NCBI GenBank assembly: GCA_017549805.1
Contig: JAFYNJ010000013.1
Location: 1-39,425 of the forward strand
Reading direction: 5' to 3'
DNA: 39,425 nucleotides
Origin: Bacteroidales bacterium
GTDB taxonomy: Bacteria > Bacteroidota > Bacteroidia > Bacteroidales > F082
In this document: piece by piece, positions 15,437 through 31,360 of the stretch
Layout of the letters: every line of letters begins with the position of its first letter
Position numbering within the stretch: the stretch's first letter is position 1
The notes under the pieces: model-generated
What the model was told of the DNA's origin: nothing
The model's database searches: none
What the model saw: the letters and a program-made list of their open reading frames with translations, nothing else
Made by a program: the position numbers and the translations under genes

Positions 15437-15883
15437 ATGGCAAAAGAAGTAAGCGGATTGATTAAACTGCAAATTAAAGGAGGAGCCGCGAACCCCGCTC
15501 CGCCCGTTGGTCCCGCATTGGGTTCCAAGGGTGTGAATATTATGGAGTTCTGCAAGCAGTTCAACGCCCGTACACAGGATCAGGCCGGCAAGGTTTTGCC
15601 CGTCATCATCACGGTGTATAAGGACAAGTCTTTTGATTTTATCATTAAGGCTTCCCCAGTGGCGGTCTCCATCATCGAAACAGCGAAGATCAAAGGCGGA
15701 TCCAAGGAACCGAACCGTACGAAAGTCGGCTCTTTGACTTGGGACCAAGTGAGAGAAATCGCCACCAACAAGATGAAGGACATGAATTGCTTCACCATCG
15801 AATCAGCCATGTCAATGGTGGCTGGTACGGCCCGTAGTATGGGAGTGAAGATTACCGGCGAATCACCTTTAAAGAAAGACTAA
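15437..15883 (+). CDS. rplK: 50S ribosomal protein uL11
   Basis: A 148-residue uL11: the N-terminal proline-rich segment ([39 protein letters not shown]) and the C-terminal 23S rRNA-binding domain ([24 protein letters not shown]). It forms the GTPase-associated centre with uL10/bL12. AAGGA 8 bases before the ATG is a modest Shine-Dalgarno candidate. First of the rplKAJL cluster. In many bacteria the L1 protein represses this mRNA, but I could not pick out a clear L1 site in the 54-base leader. Confidence 0.98.
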
Positions 15884-26035: not shown

Positions 26036-26344
26036 ATGGACGAAAAACAGAAGAATCAAATCAACATTGAACTGACCGACGAGGTGGCCAGTGGCGTTTA
26101 TTCCAATTTGGCTATCATCACCCATTCACCGACAGAATTTGTCCTCGACTTTGTGAGCATGATGCCTGGTACGCCCAAGGCCAAAGTCAAGTCGAGAATC
26201 GTCATGACGCCTCAGCATGCCAAGCGTCTTTTCAAGGCCTTGTCCGACAATCTGAGCAAATACGAGTCGAATTTCGGCACCATCAAGGAAGTGACCAACG
26301 AGGTGCTTCCACCGTTCACGATGGGACCGAAGGCGCAAGCTTAA
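26036..26344 (+). CDS. DUF3467 domain protein
   Basis: A 102-residue protein with the DUF3467 pattern: INIELTDEVASGVYSNLAIITHSPTEFVLDFVSMMPGTPKAKVKSRIVMTPQHAKRLFKALSDNL. The family is conserved directly downstream of rpoC in Bacteroidota. Its function is unknown. The gene lies 20 bases past the rpoBC terminator and no separate promoter could be recognised, so it may depend on read-through. Its stop codon overlaps that of the convergent lemA gene by 4 bases (TTAA, 26341-26344), with no terminator between them. Confidence 0.9.
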   Translation: MDEKQKNQINIELTDEVASGVYSNLAIITHSPTEFVLDFVSMMPGTPKAKVKSRIVMTPQHAKRLFKALSDNLSKYESNFGTIKEVTNEVLPPFTMGPKAQA

Positions 26345-26889
26345 CGGCCAAAATATGGATGTGTCTCAAACCCGAACCAGTCGGCGATAAGGCTGCTGGG
26401 GAAGCTGCGGATGGACTTGTTGTAGTCTTGCACCATCTCGTTGTAGCGGCGACGCTCGACAAGGATGCGGTTCTCGCTTCCCTCATATTGGGCTAAGAAG
26501 GTTTGATAGGTCTCCACCGCCTTGAGGTCGGGATAGTTTTCAACCGAAACAATTACGTCGTTTACGGCGTTGTCAAGCAGCTGCTGTGAATTCTCGAATT
26601 CCAGCAGCTGCTCTTCTGTCATGTTCTCGGGATCCACCTTGATGGCTGCAGCCTGCATGGCACGGTTTTTCACCACCTCGATTAAGGTGGTGCTCTCGTA
26701 GTTGGAGTATGCCTTCACCACGCTGACCAGGTTGGGGATGAGGTCCATGCGCCGCTGGTACACGTTCTCCACTTGTGACCAGGCCTGGGTCATCTTCTCT
26801 TGGGTTTTGACGAAGCTGTTGTATTTGGCGATGCCCCAAATGAGAGCGACAGCCAACAGGCAGAGGAGCAACCAAAGCGTTTTTTTCAT
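26341..26889 (-). CDS. LemA family protein
   Basis: A 182-residue LemA protein: one N-terminal membrane segment (residues 2-20, KKTLWLLLCLLAVALIWGIA) followed by a helical bundle with the family motifs YNSFVKTQEKMTQAWSQVENVYQRRMDLIPNLVSVVKAYSNYE and RRRYNEMVQDYNKSIRSFPSSLIADWFGF. ATG 26889 is preferred over the TTG four codons upstream. Membrane-anchored, periplasmic function unknown. It is often linked to TPM-domain genes, which are not present here. It starts 12 bases after the pyrI stop, which makes it the last gene of a pyrB-pyrI-lemA transcript. That partnership may be positional only. Confidence 0.88.
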   Translation of the reverse strand: MKKTLWLLLCLLAVALIWGIAKYNSFVKTQEKMTQAWSQVENVYQRRMDLIPNLVSVVKAYSNYESTTLIEVVKNRAMQAAAIKVDPENMTEEQLLEFENSQQLLDNAVNDVIVSVENYPDLKAVETYQTFLAQYEGSENRILVERRRYNEMVQDYNKSIRSFPSSLIADWFGFETHPYFGR

Positions 26890-26901
26890 GACGGGTTGCA
26901 A

Positions 26902-27366
26902 TTAGATGAATTCGATGTTCTCTTCTGAGGTGTATTTCTCGCAGTAGTGGCAGACCAGGCGAAGCTTGCCGTCCACATACTTCACGCGGAACTTGGTCGG
27001 GATGTCGTGCTCCTTGTTGGTGACGCAGTTCGGGTTGAAGCATTTCACGATGTGCTCGATGCGATCGGGGATGGTCACGGTTTGCTTGTTGATCACCTCG
27101 AACTCCTTGATCTCGATGATGGAGGCTGTGGGTGCCACCAAGGCAATCTTGTTCACGTCTTCGGTCGCGAAATATTTATCGGAGACTTTTACGAAGCCCT
27201 TGGTGCCGTATTTCTTGCTTTCCACGTTGATGCCAAGATACACCGGGTTGTTTATCTTGTCCAAGCCTAAGATCTTGACCACTTGGAACACTTTGTCGGC
27301 AGGGATATGGTCGATGACCGTGCCATTCTCAATGGCGGATACGATCAGTTCTTTTCTTTTTTCCAT
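26902..27366 (-). CDS. pyrI: Aspartate carbamoyltransferase regulatory subunit
   Basis: A 154-residue PyrI: N-terminal nucleotide-binding allosteric domain (LIVSAIENGTVIDHIPADKVFQVVKILGL) and a C-terminal zinc domain with Cys109, Cys114, Cys139 and Cys142, which holds the regulatory-catalytic interface. Its presence means the enzyme is the E. coli-like dodecamer, feedback-controlled by CTP. It is separated from pyrB by a 32-base spacer made almost entirely of heptamer repeats. No Shine-Dalgarno. Confidence 0.97.
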   Translation of the reverse strand: MEKRKELIVSAIENGTVIDHIPADKVFQVVKILGLDKINNPVYLGINVESKKYGTKGFVKVSDKYFATEDVNKIALVAPTASIIEIKEFEVINKQTVTIPDRIEHIVKCFNPNCVTNKEHDIPTKFRVKYVDGKLRLVCHYCEKYTSEENIEFI

Positions 27367-27370
27367 AACT

Positions 27371-27398
27371 TTTATCTTTTATCTCTTATCTTTTATCT
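27371..27398 (-). repeat. Heptamer tandem repeat filling the pyrB-pyrI spacer
   Basis: On the minus strand four consecutive units AGATAAA, AGATAAG, AGATAAA, AGATAAA (28 bases) lie between the pyrB stop and the pyrI start, ending 4 bases before the pyrI ATG. There is no other sequence of note in this 32-base spacer. Confidence 0.85.
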
Positions 27399-28319
27399 TT
27401 ATTTGAGTCCCAAAATTGCTGCGATAAGTGCTTGCCTTGCATACACGCCATTCTGTGCCTGTTGGAAATAGTAGGCCTTCGGGTTGGCATCCACGTCCAC
27501 ATGGATTTCGTTGACGCGCGGCAGCGGGTGCAGGATGCGGCAGTTGGGCTTGGCGTTGGCCAGCATGGCGTTGCGCAGCACGTAGGAATTCTTCACCTTC
27601 TCGTATTCCAGCGGATCGGGGAAGCGCTCGCGTTGCACACGGGTCATATAGATGATGTCGGAGTGGGGGATGACTTCCTCCAGCTCGGTAAACTGTTCGT
27701 ATTCAAGATGGGCGTCCTTGATGTGTTGTTTCACGGTTCTCGGCAGTTTGAGCTCAATGGGCGACACCAGGTTGAACTTGGCGTTGAAGTGGCTCATGGC
27801 TTCCACGAGGCTGTGTACGGTGCGGCCGTATTTCAAGTCGCCCACCAAGGTGATCTCAAGGTTTTCCAGCGTGCCTTGGGTCTTGCGGATGCTGTAGAGG
27901 TCGAGCATGCACTGGGTGGGGTGCTGGTTGGAGCCGTCGCCGGCGTTGATGATCGGCACCTTCGACACTTCGGAGGCGAATCGGGCGGAACCGTCGATGG
28001 GGTTCCGCATGACGATCAAATCGGCATAGCTGGCCACCATGGTGATGGTGTCGGCCAGCGATTCGCCTTTCTGGATGCTGGTTCCCGAGGTGCTGCTGAA
28101 GCCGATGACGTTGCCGCCCAAGAGCTGGATGGCGGTCTCGAAGCTCAGCCTTGTGCGGGTGGAAGGCTCGAAGAACAGCGACGCGATGATGCGTCCGTTG
28201 AGCAGGTTCTGATGCGGATTCTTCTCGAAGTCTTCTGCGATGTCAAGAACATGGCAGATCTCCTCCGGCGTGTAGTCGCTGATGGAAATCAGGCTGCGGT
28301 TTTTCAATGAGATGGACAT
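27399..28319 (-). CDS. pyrB: Aspartate carbamoyltransferase catalytic subunit
   Basis: A 306-residue PyrB, which condenses carbamoyl phosphate and aspartate, the first committed step of pyrimidine synthesis. The carbamoyl-phosphate motif FEPSTRTR (residues 50-57), the Ser/Lys loop [14 protein letters not shown], the HPTQ motif and the aspartate-binding VQRERFPDP and HPLPRVNEI are all intact. First gene of pyrB-pyrI-lemA. The leader upstream carries a strong promoter, a 20-codon ORF and a terminator hairpin, so transcription attenuation is likely. Start ATG 28319 has no Shine-Dalgarno. Confidence 0.98.
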
Positions 28320-28348
28320 AGTGTTATGTGTTTAGTTTGTTGATTATC

Positions 28349-28380
28349 AAAAAAAAGACGGTTACTAAATAGCAACCGTC
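28349..28380 (-). terminator. Leader terminator (attenuator) of pyrBI
   Basis: On the minus strand GACGGTT (28380-28374) pairs with AACCGTC (28363-28357) around a 10-base loop and is followed by eight Ts (28356-28349). It lies between the promoter and the pyrB start, 29 bases ahead of the ATG, so it must be passed by polymerase to express pyrB. Confidence 0.85.
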
Positions 28381-28427
28381 TCGATTCCTTTTATTAAGTT
28401 TTCCGGTGATACTTTTTCGTACATCAT
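28365..28427 (-). CDS. Candidate leader peptide of the pyrBI attenuator (pyrL-like)
   Basis: A 20-codon ORF beginning MMYEKVSP and ending ETVAI, with stop TAG (28367-28365) inside the loop of the attenuator hairpin. Its last codons form the hairpin's 5' arm, so a ribosome reaching the stop would prevent the terminator from folding. The ATG lies within a few bases of the predicted transcript start, so it would be translated as a (near) leaderless message. In enteric pyrBI a leader peptide, pyrL, plays this part: low UTP slows polymerase, the ribosome catches up and pyrB is transcribed. The placement is what supports it. The peptide itself has no recognisable similarity. Confidence 0.55.
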   Translation of the reverse strand: MMYEKVSPENLIKGIETVAI

Positions 28428-28430
28428 CGG
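28403..28430 (-). other. First hairpin of the pyrBI leader
   Basis: On the minus strand CCGATGATGT and GTATCACCGG can pair with one mismatch and two G-U pairs around an A-rich loop. It covers the leader ORF start and could act as a pause hairpin or regulate leader translation. Weaker evidence than the terminator. Confidence 0.4.
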
Positions 28431-28433
28431 AAT

Positions 28434-28463
28434 GCAAATATAGGAATAACTTTCAAAAACAAA
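28434..28463 (-). promoter_or_regulatory. Promoter of the pyrBI operon
   Basis: On the minus strand TATATTTGC (28434-28442) is a perfect -7 element and TTTG (28460-28463) is the -33 box at a 17-base spacing. The start would be around 28427-28430, about 110 bases ahead of pyrB. Confidence 0.75.
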
Positions 28464-28484
28464 GCCTTTTTTTGAAAAAAAAAC

Positions 28485-29069
28485 TTATTGATATTTCATA
28501 ACATTGAAGGCAATACCCAAGTAGGCAGCGTGAGCAGTGCAAGTGGCATTGATCTCGAACCATTTCCAGGGCACCACTGTGAGACCGGCGCCATAGTTGA
28601 AGTCGTTGCGGTGCCAAGTAGCGTGGTATTTGTGGTAAATGGTGTGCGAGGAGTAATCGATCTCGGCACTATAGCCCTCGGTGTAGCCTGTGGTGACACG
28701 GCTCCAGCCAATCAAAGGAGTGATAAACACATAGTCTTTGTAGATCGGAATTTGGTAACCTACGTTAAGTGTTAAAGCGGAATGGTCATCCCAGTCGCCT
28801 TGGATGAGACGGCTGTCGAATCGGTGATCAGGGCTAACATAAACAAAATCGATGTAGCCACCGGCGATGGAGAAGCTTCCGCCTACGCCGATATCGGAAA
28901 AATCCCATGTGTCGGCGATACCAAGATCGCTAACGTTTCGGTAACCGACAAGACCTGTGTTAAGGCCGACAACGGCACGATCCATGTTTTCTGAAAAGTC
29001 AAACCATTGGGCTTGGGCGCTGATCGTCATCATGGAGAACAGCACTGCGATAATTGCTAATTTTTTCAT
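28485..29069 (-). CDS. Small outer-membrane beta-barrel protein
   Basis: A 194-residue protein with a signal peptide (MKKLAIIAVLFSMMTISAQA, cleaved about residue 20), then alternating strands with aromatic ends (GGSFSIAGGYIDFVYVSP, DYVFITPLIGWSRVTTGY, FEINATCTAHAAYLGIAFNV). This resembles eight-stranded OmpA/OmpX-like porin-fold proteins common in Bacteroidota. I do not recognise a specific family. The start is 11 bases after the patatin gene's stop, so the two are probably co-transcribed. The role may be structural in the outer membrane. Another option is a surface protein under the same control as the phospholipase. Confidence 0.65.
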   Translation of the reverse strand: MKKLAIIAVLFSMMTISAQAQWFDFSENMDRAVVGLNTGLVGYRNVSDLGIADTWDFSDIGVGGSFSIAGGYIDFVYVSPDHRFDSRLIQGDWDDHSALTLNVGYQIPIYKDYVFITPLIGWSRVTTGYTEGYSAEIDYSSHTIYHKYHATWHRNDFNYGAGLTVVPWKWFEINATCTAHAAYLGIAFNVMKYQ

Positions 29070-29080
29070 AATATTTATTT

Positions 29081-31360
29081 TTAGAATGTGTAACCGAATG
29101 AGAAATACAAACTAAACCGGTTTTGATAGATGTTGCTCCATTGAGCCGTCAGTGAAATGGGACCTAAAGGACTGTTGTAGGCGTATTTCAGCCCTGCGCC
29201 ATGGGCATAATCAATTCTAAGCAGGCCGTTGTACATGGCTGTCAAATAATGGTTTCCGAAAAGGTTGTAGCGTAAGTCGCAACGGGCAATGGTGAGGAGG
29301 GAGGGCACTGTGCCAAATGTTTCCAAGTATGGAATGCCAATGAAAGGCAGTTGATTCTCGAAATGGCGTCCCTGGATCTCTCCTCCACACCTGTTTCTTA
29401 GGTTGTAGAAAGAGGTCTCGTTCAGGAAATACCGGCCATATACCTGCGGAATGATGGTCAGTCGTCCGTTCTTGGGTGTCATGTAGTATTGAAGGGCAAA
29501 ACCGATATCGAAGTTGTTGTTGCCGCCATCCATGGGGTCCCAATAATAATGGGAGTTCAAATCGGCATAAAGTCCGCGTTTGGCAAAATAGTCGTCATCC
29601 AAGCAATCGTATTCGATGTCAACAAAAGGAGTGAGGAATCTGTTGGGTATAAACCAAATGGAATCCAAGAAACTGCCTTCCAAAGAAGCGTTGTCGAAGG
29701 TGGTGCTTGTGTATGAAACGCCCACGACGGTGCTCAAGTTAAGTAAATGGAACTGCGATATGTAGGCGCTCAACTTGTTTTGGCGATAGTGCAGGTTGAC
29801 CAAATTATTGTCTGTGACATCCAAAGCAGAAGTCCTGAAATGCTCGTTCCTGTAATCGTAGGCCAAGTTAAAATTGGCCAAGCCGGCGCGAGAGTACGTG
29901 TAAGTCAGATTCACTTTCGGGTTGTAACTCAGTTTTGCGCTGAGGCTGAGTTTTGATCCATTGAACCTTTTTTCGTTTAGGCCGACTTTGAGCAACAAGG
30001 CAGAGCCTTCTTCGGTGTCGTAACGAACGCCCAGACCAAAGAGGTGAGGTTTTGCATGCTTTACGTTGATACTTAGATCGTATGCATTGGAGAGCCGATC
30101 GTTTTTGTGGATGGAGTCGGACTCTTTGACGAGGTAGGTGATCTCATCGAAACAGCCTGTGCCTCGATAGATTTTCATGGCTTTGTCGATGTCATTTTCC
30201 AGATAACGGTTTTCCTCGCGAAGCCCGCTTTTACGAAGAAGCCAACGGCTTTCCTTTTCACTCACGTCATTGAAGTTGATGGAGCGGATTGTCACCGAAT
30301 CTACTGATAGGTTTTTGGCATGAGGTGCGTGGAGCATCTTCATGACGGGTTGTCCTGCCGAGGCATCCACTGCCTCTTTGATGGCTAATAGCTGGTCGTG
30401 GAACTCGCTGGCCCGCTTGTAGCCTCTGCCTACCAAAGTGTCAATGGCTTCAGGGGTGAAGCTGAGCATGCCGAAACCGCTGATGTCGGGTATGATGTGT
30501 ACATCGCACATGGAGCGGTTGTCCACCCTTTTGGCGCTCGTGCTCGTGATCACGAGTCTTGCAAACACTTGAGGTAGCGACTTCAGATCATGGATGGTGA
30601 CATCTTTGGTGGAGGTCACCTCGACCCCGATGATAATGTCGGCCCCCATCTCACGTAGGACATCGGCTGGGAAGTTGTTCACCAAACCGCCATCCACCAG
30701 CACTTTGTCGCCGATGACGACCGGGGAGAACAATCCGGGAATGGCCATGCTGGCTCGCATGGCGGTGGGTACGCTGCCACTGCGGAGCACTACCTCTTTG
30801 CCTGTGATCATATCGGTGGCCACACAGGCAAAGGGGATGGGCATGTCGTTGAAGTCCATTTCCTCTTGGTAACCAACGCACAAATCGTTGAATAGGTTGA
30901 TTAGCGCGCTGTTGTTGACGTATGAGCTTGGCAACTGACTGATGAAACTGGAGCTCGGGTCGTTGTCGAAGAAATTGTCCGAACTGAACGGCACCTGAAG
31001 TTGCATGGTGCTATTGCGTTCACGCACTTCTTTCGATGTCAAAGGCCTCTCGATTTTGTTGCCAATATACTGCGACCAATCCATACCTGCGATGAGTTGG
31101 GTAAGTTCCTCAGGCGAATAGCCCATGGCATAGAAGCCGCCGATGATGGAGCCCATGCTGGTGCCTGCCACAAAATCGACAGGGATCCCCATCTCTTCGA
31201 TGTATTTCAGTACACCGATATGCGATGCGCCTTTGGCACCTCCACCGCCCAACACCACACCTACCTTAAGACGGGATGAGTTGGCTTCGTTTTGGGCAGA
31301 CAGGGGCGCAAAGGCTGTCAAAACAAGGATCACAGCAAGAGTTAAGGATAGTCTTTTCAT
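29081..31360 (-). CDS. Patatin-like phospholipase with POTRA and outer-membrane barrel (type Vd-like)
   Basis: A 759-residue protein with a signal peptide (1-22), a patatin domain (about 31-240) and a middle segment that looks POTRA-like (about 320-400, SVTIRSINFNDVSEKESRWLLRKSGL). A C-terminal surface-antigen/Omp85-type barrel (about 430-759) ends in FSLYFSFGYTF. The Ser-Asp dyad is visible: oxyanion loop GGGGAKG (38-44), nucleophile Ser68 in GTSMG, and Asp223 in VDGG. Such proteins are the patatin branch of type V secretion (PlpD-like). In Bacteroidota the patatin domain is usually thought to remain attached to the barrel. The activity is hydrolysis of (phospho)lipid esters at or near the outer membrane. 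First gene of a two-gene operon. Confidence 0.9.
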   Translation of the reverse strand: MKRLSLTLAVILVLTAFAPLSAQNEANSSRLKVGVVLGGGGAKGASHIGVLKYIEEMGIPVDFVAGTSMGSIIGGFYAMGYSPEELTQLIAGMDWSQYIGNKIERPLTSKEVRERNSTMQLQVPFSSDNFFDNDPSSSFISQLPSSYVNNSALINLFNDLCVGYQEEMDFNDMPIPFACVATDMITGKEVVLRSGSVPTAMRASMAIPGLFSPVVIGDKVLVDGGLVNNFPADVLREMGADIIIGVEVTSTKDVTIHDLKSLPQVFARLVITSTSAKRVDNRSMCDVHIIPDISGFGMLSFTPEAIDTLVGRGYKRASEFHDQLLAIKEAVDASAGQPVMKMLHAPHAKNLSVDSVTIRSINFNDVSEKESRWLLRKSGLREENRYLENDIDKAMKIYRGTGCFDEITYLVKESDSIHKNDRLSNAYDLSINVKHAKPHLFGLGVRYDTEEGSALLLKVGLNEKRFNGSKLSLSAKLSYNPKVNLTYTYSRAGLANFNLAYDYRNEHFRTSALDVTDNNLVNLHYRQNKLSAYISQFHLLNLSTVVGVSYTSTTFDNASLEGSFLDSIWFIPNRFLTPFVDIEYDCLDDDYFAKRGLYADLNSHYYWDPMDGGNNNFDIGFALQYYMTPKNGRLTIIPQVYGRYFLNETSFYNLRNRCGGEIQGRHFENQLPFIGIPYLETFGTVPSLLTIARCDLRYNLFGNHYLTAMYNGLLRIDYAHGAGLKYAYNSPLGPISLTAQWSNIYQNRFSLYFSFGYTF

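Follow-up and report, generated by a model that had tools for sequence, protein, structure and literature searches.

The aspartate carbamoyltransferase genes described here lie on the minus strand of a 39,425-nucleotide stretch of a Bacteroidales genome, and this whole stretch is referred to as the window. The catalytic chain is encoded by pyrB at 27399..28319 (TIGR00670, 365.9 bits, cut-off 236.95), and the next gene is pyrI, which encodes the regulatory chain, at 26902..27366 (TIGR00240, 150 bits, cut-off 148.55). Directly after pyrI, an ORF at 26341–26901 on the minus strand could belong to the pyrBI operon. It resembles MamQ at 93.8 bits, below the cut-off of 250, and presumably encodes a LemA-type protein. 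The assembly (G000) holds the pyrBI region twice, with 26925–29942 of the window (contig C13) repeated at 15762–18779 of contig C14 (3018 of 3018 bases identical), and its contamination is listed as 7.58.

Anatomy of the Leader

A promoter is located between the upstream gene (28485–29069) and the terminator that precedes pyrB. On the minus strand, its −33 element is TTTG (28460..28463) and its −7 element is TATATTTG (28435..28442), a match to TAnnTTTG; both follow the consensus TTTG/TAnnTTTG given in the available part of PMC7366714. In Flavobacterium psychrophilum, TAnnTTTG is placed at −12 to −5 in the accessible portion of PMC9723704. If this spacing is valid here, transcription is predicted to start at C 28430, 3 nt from the 28427 given in an earlier note on this DNA, and the leader ATG falls at +4. 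The leader ORF (28365..28427, minus strand) consists of 20 codons and a TAG stop, and its end forms the 5′ arm of a terminator hairpin (28355..28382, minus strand), which is followed by a T8 tract at 28349..28356. In the 7-bp core, 28380–28374 pairs with 28363–28357, and the stem can be extended to 12 bp (28382–28355) with an ATTT loop. The ATG of pyrB, at 28319, lies 112 nt after the predicted +1. A short ORF that runs into a sequence-predicted intrinsic terminator is therefore situated directly in front of pyrB, as in a leader of the pyrL type. Overall, the 93-nt leader folds better than 200 of 200 dinucleotide shuffles (z −5.0).

The promoter pair, the 20-codon ORF that begins within a few bases of the predicted start and the 7-bp terminator with T8 had all been recognized in the earlier note, and all three were found again. 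Its further remark that the TAG stop lies in the terminator loop applies to the 7-bp version; in the 12-bp version, only the T of the stop is in the loop.

Relatives of the Locus

Two sets of relatives were compared. The best-80 set contains the best 80 loci (L031–L110) of a longer list, obtained by a scan with the PyrB of the window, and amounts to 81 loci with the window itself. Of the 81, 68 carry a −7 box, and 63 of these 68 also have a terminator; the promoter is present and the terminator missing in L033, L036, L045, L051 and L070. Among the 13 loci without a −7 box, L056, L066 and L080 were left out because the contig ends too near pyrB, and L098, L102–L107, L109 and L110 are nine more distant loci in which the rule found no box. 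The remaining one, L040, has lost the whole leader, and by eye only an upstream-gene terminator is present.

For the family set, 60 genomes were sampled, of which 57 have this pyrB. Forty-eight upstream regions were examined (L266–L293 and 20 more), and the rule identified 46 leaders. The regions of G605, G607, G616 and G620 and the second copy in G574 are outside the 48, L101, L097 and L094 (G420, G417, G416) are counted in the best-80 set, while G521 and G594 belong to the genus and are handled elsewhere. Since G521 is, by its coordinates, the genus member G119, the family set represents the window's own family. One region (L297) ends too early, another (L290) failed the rule and is such a leader by eye, and in L269 the rule misassigned the start. 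The loci are almost all from metagenome assemblies, and the genus leaders are related by descent, so the counts overstate independence.

The start rules slightly favour boxes before pyrimidines and G, and a neutral rule gave nearly the same outcome. In this neutral check, exactly one strict TAnnTTTG is in range in 62/63 best-80 leaders, where the range is 40–130 nt before the terminator, and in 41/46 family leaders. When starts are taken from strict boxes only, they are CCG in 49 and TTG in 13 leaders of the best-80 set, and CCG, CTG and TCG in 19, 16 and 2 of the 41 in the family set.

An Open Frame without a Conserved Peptide

An ATG is found at +4 in 59 of the 63 terminator-bearing leaders of the best-80 set. 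The earlier note had staked its reading on the ORF being kept wherever the hairpin is kept, and the relatives speak for the ORF: 58 of these 59 frames are open past the terminator 5′ arm, where mononucleotide shuffles predict 9.4. After clustering at 70% identity, 9/9 are open against 1.1 expected from the same type of shuffle. The sole exception is L034, a member of the window's clade, in which the ORF stops 9 nt before the hairpin. The anticipated ending in the terminator loop turned out to be the minority form, as 51 of the 59 ORFs pass the entire hairpin.

A fairer frame test, which uses dinucleotide shuffles and runs from 6 nt after the A of ATG to the terminator, replaced an earlier +1-frame control because ATGA contains TGA, which biases the +1 frame. 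In the best-80 set, 62/63 frames were open against 17.6 expected, with 18 and 33 open in the other two frames and a stop density of 0.0007 per codon, compared with 0.055 and 0.042. The family set gave a similar picture (40/45 open, 12.6 expected, 10 and 13 in the other frames; 0.0049 stops per codon against 0.066 and 0.056). When all leaders were clustered at 60% identity, 11/14 were open (3.9 expected), and at 55%, 6/7 (2.4 expected). The 40 family ORFs that reach the hairpin comprise 35 that run through it and five that stop at or in it; three others end within the 15 nt that precede it (L289, L293, L295), and two stop earlier (L283, L291).

The peptide itself behaves differently from the frame. 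In gap-free comparisons, mean column entropies at the three codon positions were 0.63, 0.74 and 0.70 in 16 leaders and 0.81, 0.93 and 0.90 in 19 leaders. The codon positions vary alike, which indicates that the open frame is kept and the peptide is not, and the synonymous codon change that had been suggested as a signature was not found. The position of the leader ATG also shifts, from +4 in the genus to +6 or a site between +17 and +25 in most of the family.

A Hairpin at the 5′ End Encloses the Leader Start Codon

Folding of the window leader predicts a hairpin at 28403..28430 (minus strand) that begins at the predicted +1 and has the leader start codon inside. Predicted RNA 5′ ends in the best-80 set are CCG (50) and UUG (13), and those in the family set are CCG (19), CUG (20), UCG (2) and five others. 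The mean pairing probability of +1 to +3 is 0.89 in the best-80 set and 0.85 in the family set, compared with 0.40 and 0.38 when the rest of the leader is shuffled, and it exceeds 0.5 in 58/63 and 39/46 leaders, respectively.

The paired letters covary. In a collection of 104 distinct 5′ ends, the opening three letters have their reverse complement downstream in 65/66 CCG, 19/19 CTG and 2/2 TCG leaders; all 19 CTG leaders have CAG, and none has CGG. The reverse complement of TTG is found in 8/12 TTG leaders and also in 47/66 CCG leaders, so no covariation support comes from this group, and the 12 or 13 TTG leaders have a weak 5′ hairpin or none. Extended to the first six letters, a complement is present in 33/104 5′ ends, compared with 1.5% when the leader bodies are swapped. 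The first ATG lies within the hairpin span in 91 of the 104 and after it in 5; a hairpin of this type is missing in 7, and 1 lacks an ATG in this region. Between genus and family, the hairpin stays at the predicted +1 while the ATG moves.

The computed stability depends on the first transcribed nucleotides. Removal of two 5′ nucleotides changes the mean folding energy of 109 leaders from −5.9 to −2.45 kcal/mol, and 74 of them lose half or more of their computed stability; the window hairpin goes from −6.7 to −1.8 kcal/mol. A hairpin of this kind recalls E. coli pyrC, which is controlled by start-site choice. In the K-12 record of pyrC, a CCG start is likewise combined with a hairpin that weakens as the start moves, with computed energies of −8.1, −5.0, −3.0 and −1.6, compared with −6.7, −3.8, −2.3 and −1.6 for the CCG leaders here. 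The difference from pyrC lies in what is enclosed: the hairpin surrounds a leader start codon ahead of a terminator instead of the enzyme gene's own ribosome site.

In one subgroup (L043, L050, L052, L055, L064 and kin), a small extra hairpin can be seen by eye about 30–50 nt into the leader, and its sequence varies (GCGCC..GGCGT or GCGTC..GACGT).

The U-Rich Tract and Its Apparent Loss in the Window's Clade

Leaders of the best-80 set occur in a long and a short form. In the long leaders (n = 53), the terminator hairpin begins at about +90 to +113, and the last two 10-nt bins before it contain U at 0.56 and 0.53, compared with only 0.19 to 0.33 in earlier bins. In 52/53 cases, the most U-rich 15-nt window of the last 35 nt surpasses that of the remaining leader. 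The family set shows the tract less strongly (0.47 for the last 10 nt and 0.34 before). In the ten short leaders, which are the window and nine relatives, the hairpin starts at +48 to +52, and no U tract is present (3–5 U in the best 15 nt). The window has 4 U in its best 15 nt before the terminator, so the absence of a U-rich pause tract, pointed out previously as unusual, is correct for the window and does not extend to its kin with long leaders.

In a quick tree built from pyrB DNA (96 rows), the ten short leaders form one group with L033 and L036 (support 100), and this group is nested inside the long-leader rows. For this reason, the shortening looks derived: the window leader appears to be a shortened copy of the family form, and the absence of the U tract appears to be a secondary loss in its clade. 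The 5′ hairpin is kept in all ten short leaders despite this loss. By eye, many long leaders have an extra hairpin (GGAATC..GATTCC and similar) ahead of the U tract, and the window keeps only the 5′ half of it.

Further losses have occurred among the relatives. L033 and L036, close relatives of the window, have kept the promoter and the 5′ hairpin and have lost the terminator, and their pyrB starts about 40 nt after the predicted +1, which would place the hairpin before pyrB itself. In L045, L051 and L070, only the promoter and the letters CCGA are left, and the hairpin, leader ORF and terminator are gone. Natural losses have in this way separated the parts of the leader from one another: one clade is without the U tract, L033 and L036 are without the terminator, and L045, L051 and L070 are without everything except the promoter.

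Other pyrB Regions and Wider Searches

A further 154 upstream regions were examined, in batches of 116 and 38, the latter with three regions from outside the order. Two of the 154 proved to be genus members, which leaves 152. By rule, 86 of these have no terminator and 66 have one, and in 51 of the 66 an open stretch of at least 50 codons stops no more than 20 nt before the terminator, as at an ordinary gene end. In many other Bacteroidales families (L126:64-1398 and many of L152–L231), pyrB is preceded by a conserved gene of about 444 codons, which ends some 8 to 14 nt ahead of a terminator in front of pyrB.

A near-leaderless ORF (ATG at +3 to +6) that reaches the terminator is found in 8 of the 152 regions, a count given without a chance expectation. 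These are L144 and L153 in one family, L181 and L327 in another, L321 and L337 in a third, and L215 and L333. Four of them (L144, L153, L181, L327) also pair +1 to +3, with probabilities of 0.77 to 0.99. In L321 and L337, the ATG is at +5, the ORF stops at the terminator 5′ arm and no clear 5′ hairpin is seen; this form is perhaps independent or older. A first ATG at +11 or later reaches the terminator in L135, L138, L174, L188, L198, L229 and L319.

At E 1e-50, pyrB of this kind is present in 8/149 genomes of the class, three of them outside the order, and other kinds of pyrB would escape this threshold. An exact-motif search of eight genomes, which would overlook looser versions ahead of other pyrimidine genes, gave 12 matches, of which seven are pyrB leaders and five lie elsewhere; in G000, both matches are the pyrB leader and its copy. 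The same 18-base match to the promoter plus CCGATG also occurs about 12–13 kb from pyrB at G011:C1:256579, G015:C58:12967 and G017:C14:8451.

Interpretation and Competing Explanations

The best explanation of these features is a pyrBI transcription attenuator of the pyrL type in which the start of the leader would be gated by a pyrC-like 5′ hairpin, and from the sequence we assign this a probability of about 0.6. For the window itself, attenuation coupled to leader translation and gated by the 5′ hairpin is the most likely reading. The earlier note had already proposed a pyrL-like attenuator, and the comparison supports its core, a predicted translated leader near the 5′ end that overlaps a terminator in front of pyrBI; what it overlooked is the covarying hairpin around the start codon. 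Polymerase would start at a pyrimidine (predicted C 28430), and the hairpin would form around the leader start codon. With the leader untranslated, the terminator would form and pyrBI would be off. A ribosome that starts within the first nucleotides and follows polymerase closely would cover the terminator 5′ arm and allow read-through. In most relatives, low UTP may slow polymerase at the U tract so that the ribosome gains time, as at E. coli pyrL. The window's clade has no U tract, so control there would be expected to depend on the frequency with which the leader AUG is opened, which would be set by the 5′ hairpin and possibly also by the transcription start nucleotide.

In E. coli pyrL/pyrBI, the leader ORF also overlaps an intrinsic terminator right before pyrB at a similar distance: pyrL has 44 codons, and its terminator T8 is at nt 108–115 from the ATG. 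The long relatives share with pyrL the U-rich stretch before the terminator. According to the available part of PMC10135430, termination at pyrL occurs at high UTP, and at low UTP the polymerase pauses, which allows a coupled ribosome to block the hairpin and leads to read-through; close coupling is also described in the accessible portion of PMC5021804, and one study, as far as its available text goes, found the pyrL pause to be independent of NusA and of a hairpin (PMC9291695). By analogy, this described logic fits the long relatives. Unlike pyrL, whose ATG stands behind a purine-rich GGGAGG, the leaders here have their ATG at +4 in the window, and a covarying 5′ hairpin surrounds the start codon. 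The window differs from pyrL additionally in its missing U tract and in a 20-codon ORF that ends in the loop.

Within Bacteroidota, short ORFs in long 5′ UTRs of B. thetaiotaomicron resemble attenuation leaders (PMC7366714), and there are hints of leader-peptide attenuation ahead of amino-acid operons in F. psychrophilum (PMC9723704), both according to the parts of these papers available to us. The same excerpts report that 5′ UTRs shorter than 10 nt (3.7%) and leaderless messages (5.5%) are rare (PMC7366714, PMC9723704) and describe Bacteroidota as being without Shine-Dalgarno sequences (PMC9723704); unlike the present analysis, they name no pyrB leader or such a 5′ hairpin. In the portions at hand, a leader-gene survey that covers Bacteroidetes names no pyrB leader (PMC4833913), and PMC6245113 and PMC13328217 contain nothing on Bacteroidota. 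Among the top-ranked literature matches, with subscription journals mostly outside the coverage, no published description of such a pyrB leader was found.

A simpler reading is that only polymerase speed relative to ribosome position matters, as in pyrL, and that the 5′ hairpin does no more than make the message more stable or adjust the basal translation of the leader. The long leaders, with their ORF, U tract and terminator, agree with this, and much of what 5′ hairpins do is general. It is nevertheless unlikely, since the window's clade lost the U tract and all ten of its short leaders retain the hairpin, L033 and L036 retain it without a terminator, and a hairpin from the predicted +1 encloses the ATG in 91/104 distinct 5′ ends.

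It is improbable that the terminator merely ends the upstream gene (28485–29069) or fixes a low pyrBI level, with the ORF being incidental. Terminators close behind a long frame are common upstream of other pyrB genes (51/152), and this is the sole type at L040; however, the window has its promoter downstream of the upstream gene and ahead of the terminator, and the leader frame is open far beyond chance.

A leader RNA that binds a ligand or a protein (a riboswitch or a PyrR-type site) or an amino-acid attenuator can hardly be expected here. A match to the PyrR site does overlap the leader, yet it scores 20.7 bits where the gathering score is 54, the PyrR protein match reaches 22.5 bits against a cut-off of 138 in a search that detected its controls, and no Rfam family attains its gathering score over the leader. 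Runs of at least three Asn are found in 11 leaders, of Gln in 2 and of Ile in 2; set against this, the leader peptide is not conserved, and the other residues checked (Arg, Asp, Cys, Glu, His, Trp, Tyr, Met, Ala, Gly and Pro) form no runs. PyrR attenuation and the Rfam families were rejected or weakened by these scores, as was attenuation by Arg or Asp by the lack of codon runs. The terminator 5′ arm can pair upstream, as in an antiterminator, with a probability above 0.5 in 29/109 leaders (mean 0.38), figures that stand without a shuffled control. By eye, no T run that could serve reiterative transcription follows the predicted start. The inverted repeat at +1 could also be read as an operator in the DNA to which a repressor binds, with the leader being secondary. 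This is very improbable, as the span varies from 16 (L099, L101) to 24 (L100), 28 (window) and about 34 nt (L277) and the pairing includes G-U pairs.

A Possible Two-Step Pyrimidine Sensor

The pyrL-like attenuator with a gated leader start could go one step further. A start-site switch of the pyrC type may operate ahead of the attenuator of the pyrL type within one leader, which would make it a two-step pyrimidine sensor; this extension is tentative, and we would give it somewhat less than even odds. When CTP and UTP are plentiful, transcription would start at the +1/+2 pyrimidines, the hairpin would hide the AUG, the leader would not be translated and the terminator would act. When they are scarce, transcription would start two to three bases later on G or A, and the hairpin would fail. 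The practically leaderless message would then be translated at once, and the following ribosome would prevent termination. Pyrimidine sensing at initiation is the boldest and an unproven step of this proposal.

The proposed attenuator would demonstrate translation-coupled attenuation of pyrBI in Bacteroidota, achieved by near-leaderless translation together with a hairpin at the 5′ end. Since natural losses have separated its parts, the coupling of polymerase and ribosome in Bacteroidota could be tested directly with small reporters. If the two-step reading is true, such a switch has been kept through a family of Bacteroidales that is mostly uncultured, and the window's clade, which is devoid of the U tract, would rely on the start-site step alone.
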